Assembly (NCBI RefSeq): GCF_018860165.1
Contig: NZ_JAHKNG010000003.1
Span: 124,001 to 188,000 of the forward strand
DNA: 64,000 nt
DNA from: Paracoccus marinaquae
GTDB lineage: Bacteria; Pseudomonadota; Alphaproteobacteria; Rhodobacterales; Rhodobacteraceae
Direction of reading: 5' to 3'
The position numbers were made by a program, and so were the translations under genes. Shown here one piece after another: positions 12,946 through 52,623 of this stretch (positions are counted from its first letter, which is position 1; each line of letters begins with the position of its first letter). The notes below the pieces were generated by a model. The model was not told where the DNA came from. It saw only the letters and a program-made list of their open reading frames with translations, and ran no database searches.

Positions 12946-14274
12946 TCAGTTCGTCGCCGCGGCGCCCTCGTCCGGGTCCACGCCTTCGGGGCGGCCAACC
13001 AGAACGAAGCGCAGGTTATCCGAATCCAGCAGGCGTTGTGCGACGCGCTGCACGTCCGCGGCGGTGACGGCCTCGACCTTCTGGTTGCGGGTGTTCGGAT
13101 AGTCGATCGGAAAACCGGTCAGCTGCATCCCGGCCAGGATCGCGGCGATCTTGCCGTTGCCGTCGAATCGCAGCGGATATTCGCCGGTCAGATAGGTCTT
13201 GGCATCGGTCAGTTCCTGATCGGTCACGCCTTCGGCGGCCATGCGGTCCCATTCCTGCCGGATCAGCGCCAAGGCCTCGCCGATGGTCGCGTTCGAGCCG
13301 GCCATGGCGCCGCGCCAGCTCTGGCCGTAGATGCCGGTGGCTAGGCCGGAATAGACGCCATAGGTCAGTCCGCGCTTTTCGCGGATTTCCTCCATCAGTC
13401 GCGAGCTGAAGCCGCCGCCGCCGAGGATGTGATTGGCGACATAGGCGGCGAAATAGTCCGGATCGTCGATCGGCAGGCCGGGGCCGGCAAAGCTGACGAT
13501 GGTCTGCGGGCTGTCCCAGTCGATGACGGTGACGCCGCCGGCCACGGCCAGTTCCGCCGTCCCGGGCAGGGGCGCCGTGCCCTCTTCGGGCAGCCGGCCA
13601 AGGATCCGGTCCACCAGCAGGCCCAGTTCCTCGGGGGTGATGTCGCCGGCGGCGCCGATCACCACCCGGTCGCGGGCCAGCACCCGGTTCTTGGCGGCGA
13701 CCAGATCCTGCCGGCTCAGCGCGGCAACCGAAGCGGCGTCACCGTTGGTCGAACTGCCATAGGGGTGATCGCCCCAGGATTGCTTTGCCATCTCCTTGGC
13801 GGCGATGGATTGCGGATCGGTCGCCTCGCGGCGGATGATCGCCTGGATCTGGGCACGCACACGCTCGATGGCGCTGTCGTCGAAACGCGGCTGGCTCAGC
13901 GCCAGCGCCAGGAGATTGGCGGCCTGATCGCGGTTCTCGGTCAGGGCCCGCATCGAGACGCTGAGTGAATCATCGCCCACGTCGAAATTCAGCCGCGCGC
14001 CCAGATCCTCGACCGCCTGCGCGAAGGCGGTCGAATCCAGCTTGCCGGCGCCTTCCTCCAGCGTTGCGGTCATCAGGTTGATCGCCCCGCGCTTGCCCGG
14101 CGCATCGAGGCTGGCGCCGCCCCTGAATTCCAGATCGAGCGCGGTGAAGGGGATCGAATGATCCTCGACCAGCCAGGCCTCGATGCCACCGGGCGAGATC
14201 ACCCGCTGGATGTCGATGGCTTGGGCCGGGGCGGCGAGAACCGCAAGAAACAGGGCGATGGCGGCGCGGATCAT
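12946..14274 (-). CDS. M16 family peptidase, non-catalytic partner chain
   Basis: 442 residues with a signal peptide (MIRAAIALFLAVLAAPAQA). It has the two-lobed M16 (pitrilysin/insulinase) pattern, including GGGGFSSRLMEEIREKRGLTY, but lacks the zinc-binding HxxEH motif in the first lobe. It should therefore be the inactive half of a heterodimer with the next gene upstream, which has the motif. Its start overlaps that gene's stop by four bases, so the chains are translationally coupled. Probably periplasmic. Confidence 0.88.
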   Translation of the reverse strand: MIRAAIALFLAVLAAPAQAIDIQRVISPGGIEAWLVEDHSIPFTALDLEFRGGASLDAPGKRGAINLMTATLEEGAGKLDSTAFAQAVEDLGARLNFDVGDDSLSVSMRALTENRDQAANLLALALSQPRFDDSAIERVRAQIQAIIRREATDPQSIAAKEMAKQSWGDHPYGSSTNGDAASVAALSRQDLVAAKNRVLARDRVVIGAAGDITPEELGLLVDRILGRLPEEGTAPLPGTAELAVAGGVTVIDWDSPQTIVSFAGPGLPIDDPDYFAAYVANHILGGGGFSSRLMEEIREKRGLTYGVYSGLATGIYGQSWRGAMAGSNATIGEALALIRQEWDRMAAEGVTDQELTDAKTYLTGEYPLRFDGNGKIAAILAGMQLTGFPIDYPNTRNQKVEAVTAADVQRVAQRLLDSDNLRFVLVGRPEGVDPDEGAAATN

Positions 14275-15794
14275 CCTTGCACCTCGTTGTTGCGGGCATC
14301 TGACGGGGCGGGGCGGGCGGGCGGGCGATCCGCGGCGGGTGCGGGCGTCGCCGCGGCGGGCAGCGGCGTTCCCTGCGCGTTGGTGCCGTCCTGCTTGCGG
14401 GCCGGGGCCCTGGCGGGCCGGGCCTCGCCCTCGGGCGGGGGGGCGGGCAGGAGCCAGCCGGTCACGGTGGCGGTGTCGGCCAGCAGGTCCCGGGCTGCGG
14501 CGCGCACATCTTCGGCCGTGACCTGCGCGAGGATGTCGGGCCAGTCGTTCACGTCCTCGATGGTCAGCCCCGTCGCCAGCCCCTGCCCGTAATCATAGGC
14601 CCGGCCATGGGCGGAATCGCGGGCATAGATGCGCGCGGCGCGGATGCGTGTCTTGACGCGATCGAGATCGGCCGCGTCGGGGCCGGCCTGGACGAATTTC
14701 GCCAGCGCCTGATCCAGCAGCGCCTCGGCCTGTTCGGGTGTGATCCCCTCGGCCGGAACCATCGACAGGGTGAAGGTCGTCGGATCGACCGCCAGCCCGT
14801 CATAGCCCGCGTTCACCCAGATCGCCTTGCCGGGCAGCGCCAGTTCGCGCCCCAGGACCGAGGTCTGCATCGAGCCGCCCAGCAATTCGGCAAGAACCGT
14901 CAGCGCGGCGGCGGGTTCCTGATCGCCCGGGTTGCGCTCGGTGGCGATATGGCTGCGGATCAGCGTCGGCTGGGCCACGCGCGCATCCTGCATCTGCATC
15001 CTTCGGGATGCGCGCTGCACGGGTTCCTGCGGGCGGATGCGCGGCGCGGCCTCGCCCCGGGCCGGGAGCTGGCCGTAATATGTTTCGGCCAGTTCGCGCG
15101 CCTTCTCGGGGGTGACATCGCCGGCGAGGATCAGCACCGCCTTGTTCGGCGAATAGTGATCGTCGTACCAGGCGATCGCATCCTCGCGGGTCAGCTCCTC
15201 CATTTCCTGCCGCCAGCCGATGACCGGGCGGCCGTAAGGATGGTTGTAGAACTGCACCGCGTCGCGTTCCTCGGCGAAAAGCGAACGGGGATCGCTGTCG
15301 GTGCGCTGTGCGCGTTCCTCAAGCACCACCTGCCGTTCGGCCTGCCAGTCATCCTCGCCGATCCTGAGATTGGCCATCCGGTCGGCCTCCATCTCCATGA
15401 TCAGCGGCAGCCGGTCGCTGGCGATACGCTGGAAATAGGCGGTGTAGTCGTAGGAGGTGAAGGCGTTGTCCATGCCGCCATTGGCGGTGACGGTCTTCGA
15501 CAGTTCCCCGGGTTCCAGCTTGTCGGTACCCTTGAACATCAGGTGTTCGAGGTAATGGGCGATGCCGGACTTGCCCGGCGGTTCATCGGCCGAGCCGATC
15601 CGGTACCACAGCATCTGCACGATGACCGGGGCGCGGGGATCCTCGATCACCACCGTTTCCAGCCCGTTCGGCAGGGTGAAATGGCTGATGCCCTCGGGCA
15701 TCTCCGGCATCTCGGCGGTCTGGGCCAGCGCAGGCAGGGCAGGCAGCGACAGGGTCAGCGACAGCGCGCTGGACAAGGCGAGGCGGCGCATCAT
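14271..15794 (-). CDS. M16 family zinc peptidase, catalytic chain
   Basis: 507 residues with a signal peptide ending near LPALAQTAE. The inverted zinc motif is present as HYLEHLMFKG, with further acidic residues downstream. The C-terminus is a long Ala/Pro-rich tail that reads through to the partner gene. The ATG at 15794 has AAGGAG nine bases upstream; the open frame extends to 15911 without family similarity. With its inactive partner it would form a periplasmic protease degrading peptides or misfolded proteins; no substrate is evident. Confidence 0.9.
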   Translation of the reverse strand: MMRRLALSSALSLTLSLPALPALAQTAEMPEMPEGISHFTLPNGLETVVIEDPRAPVIVQMLWYRIGSADEPPGKSGIAHYLEHLMFKGTDKLEPGELSKTVTANGGMDNAFTSYDYTAYFQRIASDRLPLIMEMEADRMANLRIGEDDWQAERQVVLEERAQRTDSDPRSLFAEERDAVQFYNHPYGRPVIGWRQEMEELTREDAIAWYDDHYSPNKAVLILAGDVTPEKARELAETYYGQLPARGEAAPRIRPQEPVQRASRRMQMQDARVAQPTLIRSHIATERNPGDQEPAAALTVLAELLGGSMQTSVLGRELALPGKAIWVNAGYDGLAVDPTTFTLSMVPAEGITPEQAEALLDQALAKFVQAGPDAADLDRVKTRIRAARIYARDSAHGRAYDYGQGLATGLTIEDVNDWPDILAQVTAEDVRAAARDLLADTATVTGWLLPAPPPEGEARPARAPARKQDGTNAQGTPLPAAATPAPAADRPPARPAPSDARNNEVQG

Positions 15795-15892: not shown

Positions 15893-15965
15893 GCGGGCGT
15901 GCCGCCCGCACCAGATGCGTTCGCGGGGGCGCTGCCCCCGACCCCGAGGTATTTTCAAAGAGTGC
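15893..15965 (+). repeat. Two-hairpin intergenic repeat, copy A
   Basis: On the plus strand there is a first hairpin GCGGGC/GCCCGC (15893-15898 with 15904-15909). A second follows, CGGGGGC/GCCCCCG (15924-15930 with 15934-15940), and then ACCCCGAGGTATTTTCAAAG. The same plan (GC hairpin, G-run/C-run hairpin, C-rich stretch, then an ATATTT- or TATTTT-type tail) occurs on the minus strand at copies B and C. Here both flanking genes are on the minus strand, so the element points against them and is not simply the terminator of the gene before it. Confidence 0.65.
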
Positions 15966-16019
15966 GAGGGTCGGGCGAGCTGAGCCAGGTTGCCGGCGAT
16001 CCGCGATGCCACCGGAGGA

Positions 16020-16760
16020 TCAGCCGACGCGGCGCAGGAAGGCGCGGGTGCGTTCGTCCTCGGCGGCGCCGAAGATCCGGTCGGGTGGACCCTGTTCGAC
16101 GATCCGCCCGCCTTCCATGAACACCACCCGGTCGGCGATCTCGCGGGCGAACTGCATCTCGTGGGTGACGATCAGCATGGTCTGGCGGCCGCCGGCGATG
16201 CGGCGGATCAGGTCGAGGACCTCGCCCACCCATTCCGGGTCCAGCGCGCTGGTCGGTTCGTCGAACAGCATCAGGTCGGCCTCGAGCGCCATGGCGCGGC
16301 CGATGCCCACGCGCTGCTGCTGGCCGCCCGACAGCCCGGCCGGATAGCTGTCGCCGCGATCGCCCAGCCCGATCTGGCGCAGGATCGCGTCGGCGCGGGC
16401 GCCGGCCTTTGCTTCGGGCCAGCCGCGCACGGTGGTCAGCCCTTCCATGATGTTCTGGCGCGCGGTCTTGTTGGCGAAGAGGGCATAGTTCTGGAACACG
16501 AAGCCGGTGCGCCGCCGCAGCGCCAGGATCTCGTCGCGATGGGCGCGGGCGGCGTCCAGGCTCAGATCGCCCAGGGTGATGCGTCCCTCATCCGGGCGGT
16601 CGAGAAAGTTCAGGCAGCGCAGCAGCGTCGATTTGCCGGTGCCCGAGGGGCCGATGATCGCCACCCGTTCGCCCGGCTTCAGATGCAGGTCGATGCCGTT
16701 CAGCACGGTGCTGCCGCCGAAACGCTTGACCAGCCCGTCGATGCGGATCTCGCAGCTCAT
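16020..16760 (-). CDS. Polar amino-acid (cystine-type) ABC transporter ATPase
   Basis: 246 residues. Walker A is GPSGTGKSTLL, the signature is GLSGGQQQRVGIGRAM and Walker B is LMLFDEPTSALD. It powers uptake by the permease encoded just upstream, whose stop overlaps this start by four bases (ATGA). The set of one ATPase, one permease and one binding protein is the cystine/polar amino-acid type. The start at 16760 gives the family N-terminus MSCEIRIDGLVKRFGG; longer in-frame sequence is part of the permease gene in another frame. Confidence 0.9.
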   Translation of the reverse strand: MSCEIRIDGLVKRFGGSTVLNGIDLHLKPGERVAIIGPSGTGKSTLLRCLNFLDRPDEGRITLGDLSLDAARAHRDEILALRRRTGFVFQNYALFANKTARQNIMEGLTTVRGWPEAKAGARADAILRQIGLGDRGDSYPAGLSGGQQQRVGIGRAMALEADLMLFDEPTSALDPEWVGEVLDLIRRIAGGRQTMLIVTHEMQFAREIADRVVFMEGGRIVEQGPPDRIFGAAEDERTRAFLRRVG

Positions 16761-41134: not shown

Positions 41135-41386
41135 GCTTCGGGCAAGCCGATCCCTCGACCTGCCGCCGCGCCCCCATGGCCGCGGCGAAGGGCGGTATTT
41201 TGGCGAACGCATCCGGGGCGTGGCAACCCGGCTTTTCGGACATCGATAACGGTTGACCCACACGGCGTCGGCGGATAGTTGCCTATCATGACGTGTTTGT
41301 GGTGGGCGACCGAGGCAGGCGGCCGTGCCGCGCCCTTTGGTCGCGCGGGGGTTTTCCGCGTGGTGGCGATATCTGCACATGACAGT

Positions 41387-46260: not shown

Positions 46261-46620
46261 TCAACCTTGCCGGCCATGGCAAAGCACGTTCACCAGATTT
46301 CCTTCGGGATCGCGCAGATAGAATCGGCGCAACCCCCACGGCTCGTCAACCGGACCATAGACGATCTCGCCACCGGCTGCGCTGACGCCCCGCTCCGCCT
46401 CGGCCAGATCGTCGACCTCGATCGAGATCACCGGCAGATCGGTCCCCGACCCGCCCTGCGACGCCGCATGAAGCTCGATCCTCTGCGGCCGGCCCAATTC
46501 AAGAAAGGCGATCCAGCCCATGTCCAGGGACATCTCGAACCCGAAAGCCGCGCGATAGAAATCCGCCAGCCGCAGAAGATCCTGCGCCGCGAGGTTCGGG
46601 ACAATCCGCAGGACGCTCAT
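46261..46620 (-). CDS. VOC-family (glyoxalase/bleomycin-resistance-like) protein inside the gcv operon
   Basis: 119 residues with one vicinal-oxygen-chelate domain: an N-terminal FYRAAFGFEMSLDMGWIAFLE half and a C-terminal RRFYLRDPEGNLVNVL half. A metal-binding pattern is possible (His54 region and the final Glu of DPEGN). Substrate unknown. It separates gcvH from gcvP, an unusual place. The ATG at 46620 follows the tail of repeat copy B; a TTG at 46635 would use GAGGA from that repeat as its ribosome binding site. Confidence 0.75.
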   Translation of the reverse strand: MSVLRIVPNLAAQDLLRLADFYRAAFGFEMSLDMGWIAFLELGRPQRIELHAASQGGSGTDLPVISIEVDDLAEAERGVSAAGGEIVYGPVDEPWGLRRFYLRDPEGNLVNVLCHGRQG

Positions 46621-46691
46621 TTCTTCTTCATGCAAATATCCTCGGGGGTCCGGGGGCAGACAGCCCCCGGCTTCGGCCCGGCCGCCGGGCC
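46621..46691 (-). repeat. Two-hairpin intergenic repeat, copy B (between gcvH and VOC gene)
   Basis: Read on the minus strand, a stem CCGGGCC..GGCCCGG shape (46691-46685 with 46681-46675) stands right after the gcvH stop. The second hairpin is an 8-bp pair built on GGGGGC (46670-46663 with 46657-46650, five-base loop). Then come ACCCCCGAGGATATTTGC and TGAAGAAGAA up to the VOC start. The order and tail match copy C closely. It may damp transcription beyond gcvH, supply a ribosome binding site, or both. Confidence 0.7.
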
Positions 46692-46701
46692 AGACCCTTC
46701 A

Positions 46702-47061
46702 TCAGCCGATCAGCGCCTGATAGGCCGCCTCGTCCAGAAATCCGTCCATGACGCCGGGCTCGGTCGGTTTGATGCGAAAGAACCACGCCGCCATCGGATC
46801 GGCATTCACATCGCCCGGCGCATCGGCCAGCGCGCTGTTCACCGCCGTCAGAACGCCCGCCACCGGCGCGGTGATGTCCGAGGCTGCCTTGACCGATTCG
46901 ATCACCACGATCTCCTCGCCCGCCGCGACCTCGCGGCCCTCCTCGGGCAGTTCGATGAACACCACGTCGCCCAGCTGCTCGCTGGCATGGGCGGTGATGC
47001 CGACGACGATCTCGTCGCCCTCGGCGCGCAGCCATTCGTGGTCTTCGGTATATTTCAGCAT
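46702..47061 (-). CDS. gcvH: Glycine cleavage system H protein
   Basis: 119 residues. The lipoylation site is Lys58 in IVVIESVKAASDI. The start MLKYTEDHEWLRAEGDEIVVG and the Asp/Glu-rich helix that follows are typical. It shuttles the aminomethyl group between GcvP and GcvT. It follows gcvT by 14 bases. Confidence 0.97.
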   Translation of the reverse strand: MLKYTEDHEWLRAEGDEIVVGITAHASEQLGDVVFIELPEEGREVAAGEEIVVIESVKAASDITAPVAGVLTAVNSALADAPGDVNADPMAAWFFRIKPTEPGVMDGFLDEAAYQALIG

Positions 47062-48267: not shown

Positions 48268-48436
48268 GCCCCCTCTGTCCCTGCCCGGCCGGGCGCCTGA
48301 GATCGCTATCCCTTCGGCGGGCCGGTTGGCGGCCACTCTCCAGAGTCATTGTCGGAAGACGGTCCTTTCGCCTGAGAGTTCGCCGGGGCGGCTGCTCCTT
48401 CGGCACCGGCGCAGGGCCGGCTTCTCCCGAATTCCG
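48268..48436 (-). promoter_or_regulatory. Tandem glycine riboswitch
   Basis: Read on the minus strand, aptamer 1 runs from GGGAGAAGCC (about 48429) through GCCGAAGGAGCAGCC to CGAACTCTCAGGCGAAAGGA near 48361. A short linker then leads to aptamer 2, which starts CTCTGGAGAGTGGCC, has CCGCCGAAGGGATAGCGATC and ends TCAGGCGCCCGG...CAGGGACAGAGGGG at about 48268. These are the conserved cores of the two glycine aptamers. It lies directly upstream of gcvT, and binding of glycine should turn the gcv operon on. Confidence 0.93.
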
Positions 48437-48443
48437 TGCGCGA

Positions 48444-50523: not shown

Positions 50524-51213
50524 TCAAATCCCGGCTTCGGCGGCCTCGCGGATGGCGCGGATGTTGGCGCCGTAGATCTCGGGCTGGCTGACCGATCCGC
50601 CCTTGAACACGGCCGAGCCCGCGACCAGCACATCCGCCCCGGCCCTGGCCACGACGGGCGCGGTTTTCGGATCGACGCCGCCATCCACCTGGATATGGAT
50701 CGGCCGGTCGCCGATCATGCCGCGCAGCCGGGCGATCTTGTCGATCTGGCCATGGATGAACTTCTGCCCGCCGAAGCCCGGGTTCACCGTCATGATCAGC
50801 ACCATGTCGCAGAGGTCCAGCAGATATTCGATGGCTTCCAGCGGCGTGCCGGGATTAAGCGAAATCCCCGCTTTCTTTCCCGTCGCGCGGATCGCCTGCA
50901 GGGTACGGTGCGGATGCGGGCCCGCCTCGACATGGGCGGTGATCATGTCGGCCCCGGCCTCGGCATAGGCCTCGATATAGGGATCGACCGGCGCGATCAT
51001 CAGATGCACGTCCATGAAGGTGGTGACATGCGGCCGGAAGGCCTTCACGGCGGGCGGCCCGAAGGTCAGGTTCGGCACGAAATGCCCGTCCATCACATCG
51101 ATATGGACCCAATCGGCGCCCTCAGCCTCGATGGCGCGGATCTCGCGCCCGAAATCGGCGAAATCGGCCGACAGGATCGAAGGCGCGATCCTGATCTTGC
51201 GGTCGAATGTCAT
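50524..51213 (-). CDS. cbbE: Ribulose-phosphate 3-epimerase
   Basis: 229 residues, complete. Motifs [17 protein letters not shown] and [14 protein letters not shown] carry the metal-binding and catalytic Asp/His residues. It interconverts ribulose-5- and xylulose-5-phosphate for the Calvin cycle and pentose phosphate pathway. The start overlaps the cbbX stop as ATGA, so it is the last gene of the cbb operon (equals rpe). Confidence 0.95.
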
Positions 51214-52139
51214 GGCTCATCTCTCCTGCGGCTGCCGTCGATGTCCAGCCCGCCCGAAAAGACGCGGCTGGCCCGGATATCCGCCTCCGATATGGTCGAA
51301 AGCGTCTCGGCGTCAACCGGTCCGTCATGCTCGAACAGCCGGTTCGCCTGTCGCAGCCTCGCCCGGTCCAGCGCGTTGCGGATGGATCGCGCATTGGCGA
51401 AATGCGGCTGCCCGCGGCGCAGCCGCACATAGTCGTCCATCGCCGCCCGCCCGGCCGCATCGAAGCGATAGCCCTGCGCCCCCAGCATCGCGCCCGAGAT
51501 CCGCCCCAGTTCGGCATCGGTATAGTCGGGAAACTCGATGTGATGCGCGATGCGCGAGCGGAACCCGGGATTGGCGGAAAAGAACCGGTCCATGCGGTCG
51601 GCATAGCCGGCCATGATCACCACCAGATCGTCGCGGTTGTTCTCCATCACCTGCAACAGGATCTCGATCGCCTCCTGCCCGTAATCGCGCTCGTTGTCGG
51701 GCTTGTAGAGGTAATAGGCCTCGTCGATGAACAGCACCCCGCCCATCGCCTTCTTCAGCACCTCCTTGGTCTTGGGCGCGGTATGGCCGATATACTGGCC
51801 GACCAGGTCGTCGCGGGTGACGCTGACCAGATGGCCCTTGCGGACATAGCCCAACCGATGCAGCAACCCCGCCATCTTCAGCGCCACGGTGGTCTTGCCG
51901 GTGCCGGGATTGCCGGTGAAGGACATGTGCAGCGTCGGCGTCTCATGCGCCAGCCCCATCTCGCGCCGCGCCCGGTCGACCAGCAGCAGCGCCGCGGTCT
52001 CGCGGATGCGCCGCTTCACCGGCGCCAGCCCGATCAGTTCCGCCTCCAGCTCGTCCAGCACCTCGCGCACGCCCGAGCTTTCGTATTCCGCCTTCAGGTC
52101 GATCCGCGCCGGCCGCGCCCGTTCGCCCGCCTCATCCAT
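51210..52139 (-). CDS. cbbX: Red-type RuBisCO activase CbbX
   Basis: 309 residues, one AAA+ module. Walker A is GNPGTGKTT (residues 76-84) and Walker B is [13 protein letters not shown] (from 133). CbbX forms rings that use ATP to pull the C-terminal tail of red-type CbbL and remove inhibitory sugar phosphates. Its presence with a form IC CbbL is the expected pairing. It is separated from cbbS by a 94-base gap that holds two strong hairpins and repeat copy C. Confidence 0.95.
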
Positions 52140-52150
52140 GACCCTGATCC

Positions 52151-52231
52151 CTTCTTCTTCACGAAAATATCCCGCGGGGGGTTCCGGGGGGCGCGAAGCC
52201 CCCCGGCTTCCGCCGGGCCGTCAGGCCCGGC
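52151..52231 (-). repeat. Two-hairpin intergenic repeat, copy C (between cbbS and cbbX)
   Basis: Minus strand, right after the cbbS stop: hairpin GCCGGGCC/GGCCCGGC (52231-52224 with 52219-52212, four-base loop). Then a 9-bp hairpin CCGGGGGGC/GCCCCCCGG (52206-52198 with 52192-52184, five-base loop). Then CCCCCCGCGGGATATTTTCG and TGAAGAAGAAGGG. It is the same architecture as copies A and B. In this place it may act as an attenuator so that cbbX and cbbE are made in smaller amounts than RuBisCO. Confidence 0.7.
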
Positions 52232-52233
52232 TC

Positions 52234-52623
52234 TCAGCCGACCAGTTCATGCGTATAGCGGATCGAGCGGCCATCGACCTCCTGCCGCCAGCTGCGGAAC
52301 GAAGGTTCGGTCTCGGGGCGGTTGACGATGAAGGACATCATCACCGTTTCCCAGCCGCGGGCATTGTCGAAGGCGTTGATGCGGATGTATTTCTCGCCAT
52401 GCGCCTTGCGGCAGTCGTCCAGCTCGATCATCACGCCCTTGGCGTCCTTCAGGTCGAACATCGGATTGCCCCACATCTCCCAATAGGTGTTGCGGGGATG
52501 CGGCTCGTCGGTGAACTCGATGCCGACCGACCATTCCTTCGACAGGATGTACTCGATCTGCGCGGTGATCTGGGCGTCGTCCAGATCGGGCAGGAAGGAA
52601 AAGCAGCCCTGAGTGATACGCAT
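52234..52623 (-). CDS. cbbS: RuBisCO small subunit, red-type
   Basis: 129 residues. The start MRITQGCFSFLPDLDDAQI and the C-terminal extension after FDNARGWETV are those of form IC/ID small subunits, which are longer at the C-terminus than green-type ones. GGGAG precedes the ATG. It follows cbbL by 11 bases. The partner protein of the CbbL8S8 enzyme in the cytoplasm. Confidence 0.96.
   Translation of the reverse strand: MRITQGCFSFLPDLDDAQITAQIEYILSKEWSVGIEFTDEPHPRNTYWEMWGNPMFDLKDAKGVMIELDDCRKAHGEKYIRINAFDNARGWETVMMSFIVNRPETEPSFRSWRQEVDGRSIRYTHELVG

Follow-up and report, generated by a model that had tools for sequence, protein, structure and literature searches.

What occupies the space between gcvH and the VOC-family gene that follows it in Paracoccus marinaquae, and what could it do there? 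The window, i.e., the whole stretch of 64,000 nucleotides that was analyzed (contig NZ_JAHKNG010000003.1, positions 124,001 to 188,000), contains three related structures at such sites, which an earlier note had taken for a REP- or MITE-like sequence family recruited for attenuation and for supplying a ribosome binding site.

Three copies in the window and their genome-wide family

The copy after gcvH, copy B (46621-46691, minus strand), lies between gcvH (46702-47061, minus) and the VOC-family gene (46261-46620, minus); here and below, genes in the window were named by recognising their translations. On its own strand it begins with an optional 5' GC hairpin, GGCCCGGCGGCCGGGCC (46675-46691), followed by stem 1, which is made up of a 5' strand CCGGGGGC with a G-run of five (46663-46670), the hairpin loop TGTCT (46658-46662) and a 3' strand GCCCCCGG with C-run 1 (46650-46657). 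C-run 2, five C and thus of the same length as the G-run, comes next (46644-46648), then GAGG with the ATATTT box (46634-46643) and a type I tail, TGAAGAAGAA (46621-46630), whose end adjoins the ATG of the VOC gene. Loop bases 3-4 (TC) are predicted to pair with GA at 46642-46643, which would form stem 2. The tail region 46617-46631 (minus) reads ATG AAG AAG AAA TGA (MKKK, stop), the stop overlapping the ATG of the VOC gene. A glycine riboswitch is located upstream of gcvT in the same cluster (48350-48439, minus; Rfam, 56 bits), and the gcv genes thus carry a 5' switch plus the element after gcvH.

Copy C (52151-52231, minus) separates cbbS (52234-52623, minus) from cbbX (51210-52139, minus). 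It contains the optional 5' GC hairpin GCCGGGCCTGACGGCCCGGC (52212-52231), the stem 1 hairpin CCGGGGGGC-TTCGC-GCCCCCCGG with a G-run of six (52184-52206), a C-run 2 of six C (52176-52181), GCGGG with ATATTT (52165-52175), its GCG being the complement of the loop's CGC (stem 2), and the type I tail TGAAGAAGAAG (52151-52161). Copy A (15893-15969, plus) is antisense to both of its neighbours, an M16-like peptidase gene (14271-15794, minus) and an ABC transporter ATPase gene (16020-16760, minus). Its optional 5' GC hairpin is GCGGGCGTGCCGCCCGC (15893-15909) and its stem 1 hairpin CGGGGGC-GCT-GCCCCCG (15924-15940), the 3-nt loop of which is not expected to form stem 2. Copy A departs from the other two in its run pattern of 5/5/4, with four C in C-run 2 (15942-15945) against a G-run of five, and in carrying a second tail type, type II, GAGGTATTTTCAAAGAGTGCGAGG (15946-15969).

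All three copies are present as the earlier note described them, and a covariance model recovered exactly these three loci. Two points of the proposed common plan are corrected: the first GC hairpin, variable or absent, lies outside the family core, and copy A has the type II tail and the 5/5/4 run pattern. The model matches are 46616-46688 (minus, 77 bits), 52147-52224 (minus, 64 bits) and 15903-15972 (plus, 47 bits), and are by construction, since the three copies are among the 23 training rows, all from this genome; two extra short matches represent the same hairpins on the other strand. ViennaRNA, which cannot draw pseudoknots, folded stem 1 in all three copies, with z values of -1.8 to -3.0 for the element strand and -0.9 to -3.1 for the opposite one.

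Family membership of the three copies is proven by genome-wide matches, not by window-only strings. Within the window, the 24-nt pattern GCCCCCGGACCCCCGAGGATATTT, with as many as 3 mismatches allowed, matched once and in none of 100 shuffles, and the shorter strings were not above chance: one match against 0.95 expected for GAGGATATTT (1 mismatch), two against 1.59 for GATATTT. Genome-wide, the covariance model gave at least 72 matches at E<=0.1 and at least 43 at E<=1e-6, 20 of these 43 outside the training set; the counts are lower bounds, 150 of 3894 first-look candidates having been scored. BLAST with copy B returned 29 matches at E<=0.001, itself counted. The type I tail GGATATTTNNNTGAAGAAGAAG occurs at 34 places (up to 2 mismatches) and the type II tail GAGGTATTTGGAAAGAGCGCGAGG at 30 (up to 3 mismatches), and neither reversed pattern occurs at all. 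Rather than few further copies, or ordinary terminators confined to gene orientation, the genome thus holds dozens of copies, some of them antisense. A weak fourth relative suspected at 41164-41201 was rejected, as the covariance model has no match there among its window matches, though a GGTATTTTGG string is present.

A search of Rfam 15 with the window and 20 chosen loci yielded three matches, none of them on the element, so a known Rfam RNA was rejected: nothing scored above the gathering threshold there. The longer printed core strings were not found in the open-access papers searched; the two shortest occur, none in work about Rhodobacteraceae by title, and the listed matches to the 10-mer GAGGATATTT are likewise unrelated by title. 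No REP or intergenic repeat family of this kind was found for Rhodobacter, Rhodobacteraceae or Paracoccus in the open-access literature, which leaves room for an earlier description, and neither Paracoccus nor Rhodobacter is mentioned in the main texts of the GTAG/CGTC survey (PMC3733652) and of RepRanger. Within this scope, no earlier description of the element was found.

Run lengths and loop pairing

Across the family, a 5' hairpin, which is optional, precedes the G-run, the loop and C-run 1. Either a short spacer, mostly GGA, or another hairpin that varies in sequence separates these from C-run 2, after which come a post of 3-6 bases, the (A/G)TATTT box and a purine-rich tail. Stem 1 is the G-run paired with C-run 1; the bases at its foot are mostly CC/GG, then A. 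Box conservation in the parsed set is by construction, since the parser required (A/G)TA(T/C)TT. A GTAG or CGTC tag was not found at the foot of stem 1, and a GCGTCCCGCG-type box, which contains CGTC, occurs upstream in 40 of 302 copies, some bases off the stem.

The three runs tend to share one length. G-run, C-run 1 and C-run 2 are equal in 228 of 302 distinct elements, and where the G-run equals C-run 1, C-run 2 follows in 17/17 elements at length four, 172/196 at five, 38/45 at six and 1/1 at seven, although many of the 302 were found with a model or query favouring equal runs. Among 87 elements picked by their tails only, C-run 2 was as long as the G-run in 58, against a mean of 37.7 and a maximum of 56 over 10,000 shuffles, and all three runs were equal in 53, including 38/51 at length five and 8/13 at length six; the match is looser here than in the model-picked elements. 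For 132 distinct cores the corresponding figure was 92 (shuffles: mean 52.5, maximum 71 in 10,000). A family survey, in which 62 of the 63 parsed elements came from other genera and three of 66 loci remained unparsed, gave equal runs in 60/63; these elements are best hits of the model and hence biased toward equal runs.

A second pattern of covariation links the loop to the post. Where the loop has the form YGxCT, x and the second base of the post are Watson-Crick complements in 84/84 elements, 11 of them from the tail-picked set, and all four combinations occur (T-A 75, C-G 6, A-T 2, G-C 1). TTCGC is accompanied by GCG, TTTGC by GCA and TTCAC by GTG in 45/50. Permutation of loop against post gave p = 5e-5 (18 distinct loops), and a fixed-register version p = 1e-4 (25 loops; 40/75 pairs vs 29.6 expected), both tests ignoring that the elements are related by descent. 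A first, looser permutation was weaker, being reached by 49/3000 shuffles with Watson-Crick pairs and by 2/3000 with G-U, and the control 5' register of the loop gave p = 0.0018 with G-U allowed and p = 0.81 with Watson-Crick pairs only. Several of the 25 distinct five-base loops pair poorly in the fixed register, TTCCC fits neither register, and 3-base inner loops such as that of copy A (CGCTG) seem to leave too little room for stem 2.

A pair count over 20 rows found 99.5% of cells paired, no one-sided changes, and a covariation score of 0.331 vs 0.116 for shuffled and at most 0.087 for slid alignments. Three of the five measures beat the shuffled and slid controls; the two that did not beat shuffling were pairs changed on both sides (65/500) and further pair types (276/500). 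Within stem 1, in rows chosen with runs of 5/5/5, three of eight pairs vary, every change is two-sided and 100% are paired. The hairpin between the C-runs of the long form keeps its pairing over 55 distinct sequences, with 343 Watson-Crick and 12 G-U pairs (12/355). G-U pairs are scarce in the outer stem as well (2/164 cells, with 8 mismatches).

Because of the covariation of stem 1 and of loop with post, the element points to a putative H-type pseudoknot, in which the 3' end of the loop would pair with 2-3 bases after C-run 2. C-run 2, in some elements preceded by an extra hairpin, would then be the strand crossing stem 1, as suggested by its length, which follows that of the stem.

Not every tail belongs to such a core. 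In a second architecture, a CCTCCGGCGG hairpin stands directly before GGATATTT and the same tail (e.g., at L117, L118, L121 and L131, and with 18 tails of named Paracoccus). Tails with this hairpin number 4/64 in the genome studied and 18/108 in named Paracoccus, tails without a hairpin 7/64 and 21/108, so that 11/64 and 39/108 lack the G-run hairpin. At L151 and L170, the CCTCCGGCGG-type architecture faces a G-run element about 140 nt away. Compared by eye, genomes with several copies (e.g., G051, G086 and G064; loci L351-L376 and L380-L419) have tails that are alike within a genome and differ from one genus to another, while identical loop alleles turn up in several genera. Core and tail may have separate evolutionary paths, as though the tail followed a trans-acting factor.

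Placement, spread and mobility

The orientation counts rest on a gene caller seeded with recognised genes, not on public annotation; it replaced a first caller that had followed shadow ORFs. For 62 of 64 tails of the genome (one of the others lies in a gene and one at a contig edge), the classes were ++ 25, +- 19, -- 14 and -+ 4, and for 100 of 108 type I tails of named Paracoccus they were ++ 37, +- 47, -- 16 and -+ 0. Tandem copies are thus sense in 62/92 and antisense in 30/92 (p = 0.001), and convergent positions (66/162) far outnumber divergent ones (4/162). A canonical hairpin plus T-run terminator follows within 80 nt downstream of the tail in 6/162 copies. On the complete genome G039, 35 of 63 copies lie on the leading strand, with origin and terminus placed approximately from the noisy GC skew of 20 samples; this lack of bias makes a replication-strand signal unlikely.

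Two operon junctions stand out. The element follows gcvH in sense direction in 22 of 30 loci and cbbS in 21 of 30, own loci included, and it is antisense in none. The 30 loci per site are the top-scoring BLAST matches from 41 and 61 genomes (this genome counted), and the queries contained the element, which biases presence, not direction, upward. Loop and run alleles at these sites differ between species, and in species without the element after cbbS another GC hairpin is often seen there by eye. That position and orientation are kept after gcvH and cbbS supports the earlier note's idea of recruitment, for which attenuation would be a candidate role. None of the 16 relatives whose sequence beyond the ABC gene was read shows the copy A arrangement, no match spans both flanks of copy A among the relatives' matches listed, and no close empty site for a target-duplication comparison was seen among the relatives.

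At E<=1e-6, the element was detected in 46 of 61 Rhodobacteraceae genomes (45/60 genera), with up to 73 copies (G086), and at least 115 stretches in the named genome collection carry the exact type I tail, 100 of them in Paracoccus records. Outside Rhodobacteraceae, a class-wide draw of 94 genomes under stricter filters gave one weak match. The core also occurs on plasmids of Rhizobium, Agrobacterium, Ancylobacter, Methylocystis and others, and a 37-nt core is 100% identical on two Rhizobiales plasmids; the Paracoccus tail is absent from the five Rhizobiales plasmid copies compared. A repA gene is annotated 0.4-2.2 kb away in seven of eight Rhizobiales plasmid loci, often with mobQ near, the copies pointing toward repA in five cases and away in two. 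On one Rhizobium plasmid (L289, upstream of 4001), a second G-run/C-run hairpin and then a C-run lie about 35 nt before the core. Phage records contained no match to the element, and a phage origin was rejected.

The REP-like character is borne out by dozens of intergenic copies, mostly convergent or tandem, four of 162 lying between divergent genes. An origin from a RAYT-type transposase or a MITE found no support. Y1_Tnp is absent from six of eight other Paracoccus genomes tested, among them one with 26 element matches (G036), which makes a RAYT-driven REP unlikely, and the element ends, compared by eye, differ in sequence and form no inverted repeats. The genome studied has Y1_Tnp at four places: one complete reading frame of 139 aa on contig C77 (L009:1468-1887, plus), presumably of the IS200 type by its size, and three partial matches at contig starts. 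No element was found on contig C77 among the covariance model matches listed.

What the element may do

The repeat family, its covariation, its placement and its direction are supported by the data presented here; from these patterns we infer that it works at the RNA level, that it stops exonucleases and that cutting takes place in its box. Our preferred reading, held tentatively and with somewhat less than even confidence, is that of a conserved structured module at mRNA 3' ends of Rhodobacteraceae, serving as a barrier to 3'-to-5' decay. The element would be transcribed right after the stop codon of the upstream gene, and its very stable fold would stop 3'-to-5' exonucleases, so defining where the upstream mRNA ends. 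The initial end, produced by termination or by RNase E in the AU-rich (A/G)UAUUU box, would be shortened as far as the knot. Within operons, genes in high demand such as cbbS and gcvH could thereby be uncoupled in level from the gene that follows. New copies would spread within genomes in REP fashion, which would explain why some are antisense.

The run-length rule, the stem 2 covariation, the excess of sense copies in tandem and of convergent over divergent positions, the complete absence of antisense copies at the gcvH and cbbS ends (0/60) and the other GC hairpins often seen where the element is missing after cbbS argue for such a module. The Salmonella RNase E consensus, reportedly RN|WUU, would fit (A/G)U|AUU of the box. 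According to the parts consulted of PMC6238624, RNase E sites of R. sphaeroides are AU-enriched, which agrees with the module, and only about 2% of them are in 3' UTRs, which stands against it. Also against it are the antisense third of the tandem copies (30/92), the opposite strand folding about equally well, the tails without a G-run hairpin, and the scarcity of G-U pairs, of which RNA under selection usually shows more. The scarce G-U pairs and these 30 copies lend some weight to readings at the DNA level or as a REP-like repeat.

An intrinsic terminator consists of a GC stem after a stop codon with a U-tract 3' of the stem. The element shares the GC stem after the stop codon and a U-containing box 3' of it, and differs in that stem and box lie apart, a long U-tract is missing, antisense copies exist and the loop covaries with the post. 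No U-tract directly follows the stem of the short form, from which A, C-run 2 and a further 3-6 bases separate the box, and constant direction with the upstream gene is not seen; this spacing and the antisense copies make a plain intrinsic terminator unlikely. A non-canonical one, at which RNA polymerase, paused by the GC structure, would be released in the UAUUU box with or without Rho, would accord with the positions after stop codons, the excess of sense over antisense tandem copies, the many convergent copies and the rarity of canonical terminators downstream. We find it rather doubtful: the same spacing and the same antisense copies count against it, and at gcvH-gcvP and cbbS-cbbX, apparently pairs of co-transcribed genes, transcription has to reach the second gene. 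Still less probable is that the tail supplies the Shine-Dalgarno or start region of the next gene, the fold being an attenuator; we rate this highly improbable. The called start codon does lie no more than 40 nt from where the tail starts in 28/62 sense copies in tandem, which would accord with the proposed supply of a ribosome binding site, and type I tails read RTG AAG AAG (AAG), with ATG or GTG, in 128/142. The RTG frame carries no coding signal, however, staying open for a median of 43.5 codons vs 48 in the +2 frame. Tails also occur where the next gene is convergent, and both type II tails and the majority consensus of other genera lack a start codon at this place.

The family may instead be a selfish, REP-like repeat between genes, with a structure that serves its own spread and not the host, which we consider unlikely. 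Dozens of similar copies per genome, the avoidance of divergent promoters, inverted facing pairs (e.g., L150, L151 and L170), sites without the element in relatives, and a copy A arrangement not seen in the 16 relatives read are what such a repeat would leave behind. Against this stand a position and orientation shared throughout the genus at two operon junctions, the lack of a Y1 transposase in six of eight Paracoccus, the fact that no inverted termini were seen, and the other hairpins seen by eye at the site where the element is missing. The GTAG/CGTC palindromic repeats (REP/BIME), as portrayed in the portions consulted of PMC3733652, are alike in being short intergenic palindromes with dozens of copies, which are rare between divergent genes and can form facing pairs. 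The element differs from them in having no GTAG tag at its stem and, in most Paracoccus tested, no Y1 transposase, and in its three length-coupled runs, loop-to-tail pairing, conserved asymmetric tail and fixed place and direction at two operon junctions. A site acting as single-stranded DNA or otherwise at the DNA level, such as a priming, strand-transfer or protein-binding structure, is less probable again. G-U (G-T) scarcity, the identical 37-nt plasmid cores and the vicinity of repA, often near mobQ, would suit it; the absence of replication-strand bias, the mixed direction of plasmid copies relative to repA and the preference for gene 3' ends would not.

Returning to the 3'-end module, a comparable structure is reported from the same group of bacteria. 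For the Rhodobacter puf operon, Klug reportedly described in 1987 an intercistronic GC hairpin and proposed that it sets differing mRNA stability. The likeness is a GC hairpin between co-transcribed genes; the puf hairpin is a single locus, and is not known to belong to a repeat family or to have a pseudoknot or tail. SAM/SAH riboswitches are ligand-binding 5' leaders. Their H-type pseudoknots, as presented in excerpts of PMC7367207, are similar in that a hairpin loop pairs with downstream bases, and the element differs from them in its position at gene ends and its many copies.

In its widest form, which we regard as doubtful, the proposal describes a family of exonuclease-blocking pseudoknots with a matched C-run along a G-C stem, possibly as a base-triple strand. 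The 3'-end knot and AU box would then determine RNA ends and subunit ratios throughout Rhodobacteraceae, at dozens of loci in each genome, and the element would also have been passed to Rhizobiales plasmids. If the module is real, it would represent a new repeated RNA architecture at the ends of key Rhodobacteraceae genes, including those of carbon fixation and glycine cleavage, with a strict rule by which x demands x' after C-run 2 and the three runs tend to one length. Segmental mRNA stability is a long-studied subject in this group, and the element would provide a structural basis for it. One and the same repeat would then be both REP-like in its dispersal and regulator-like in its fixed place.
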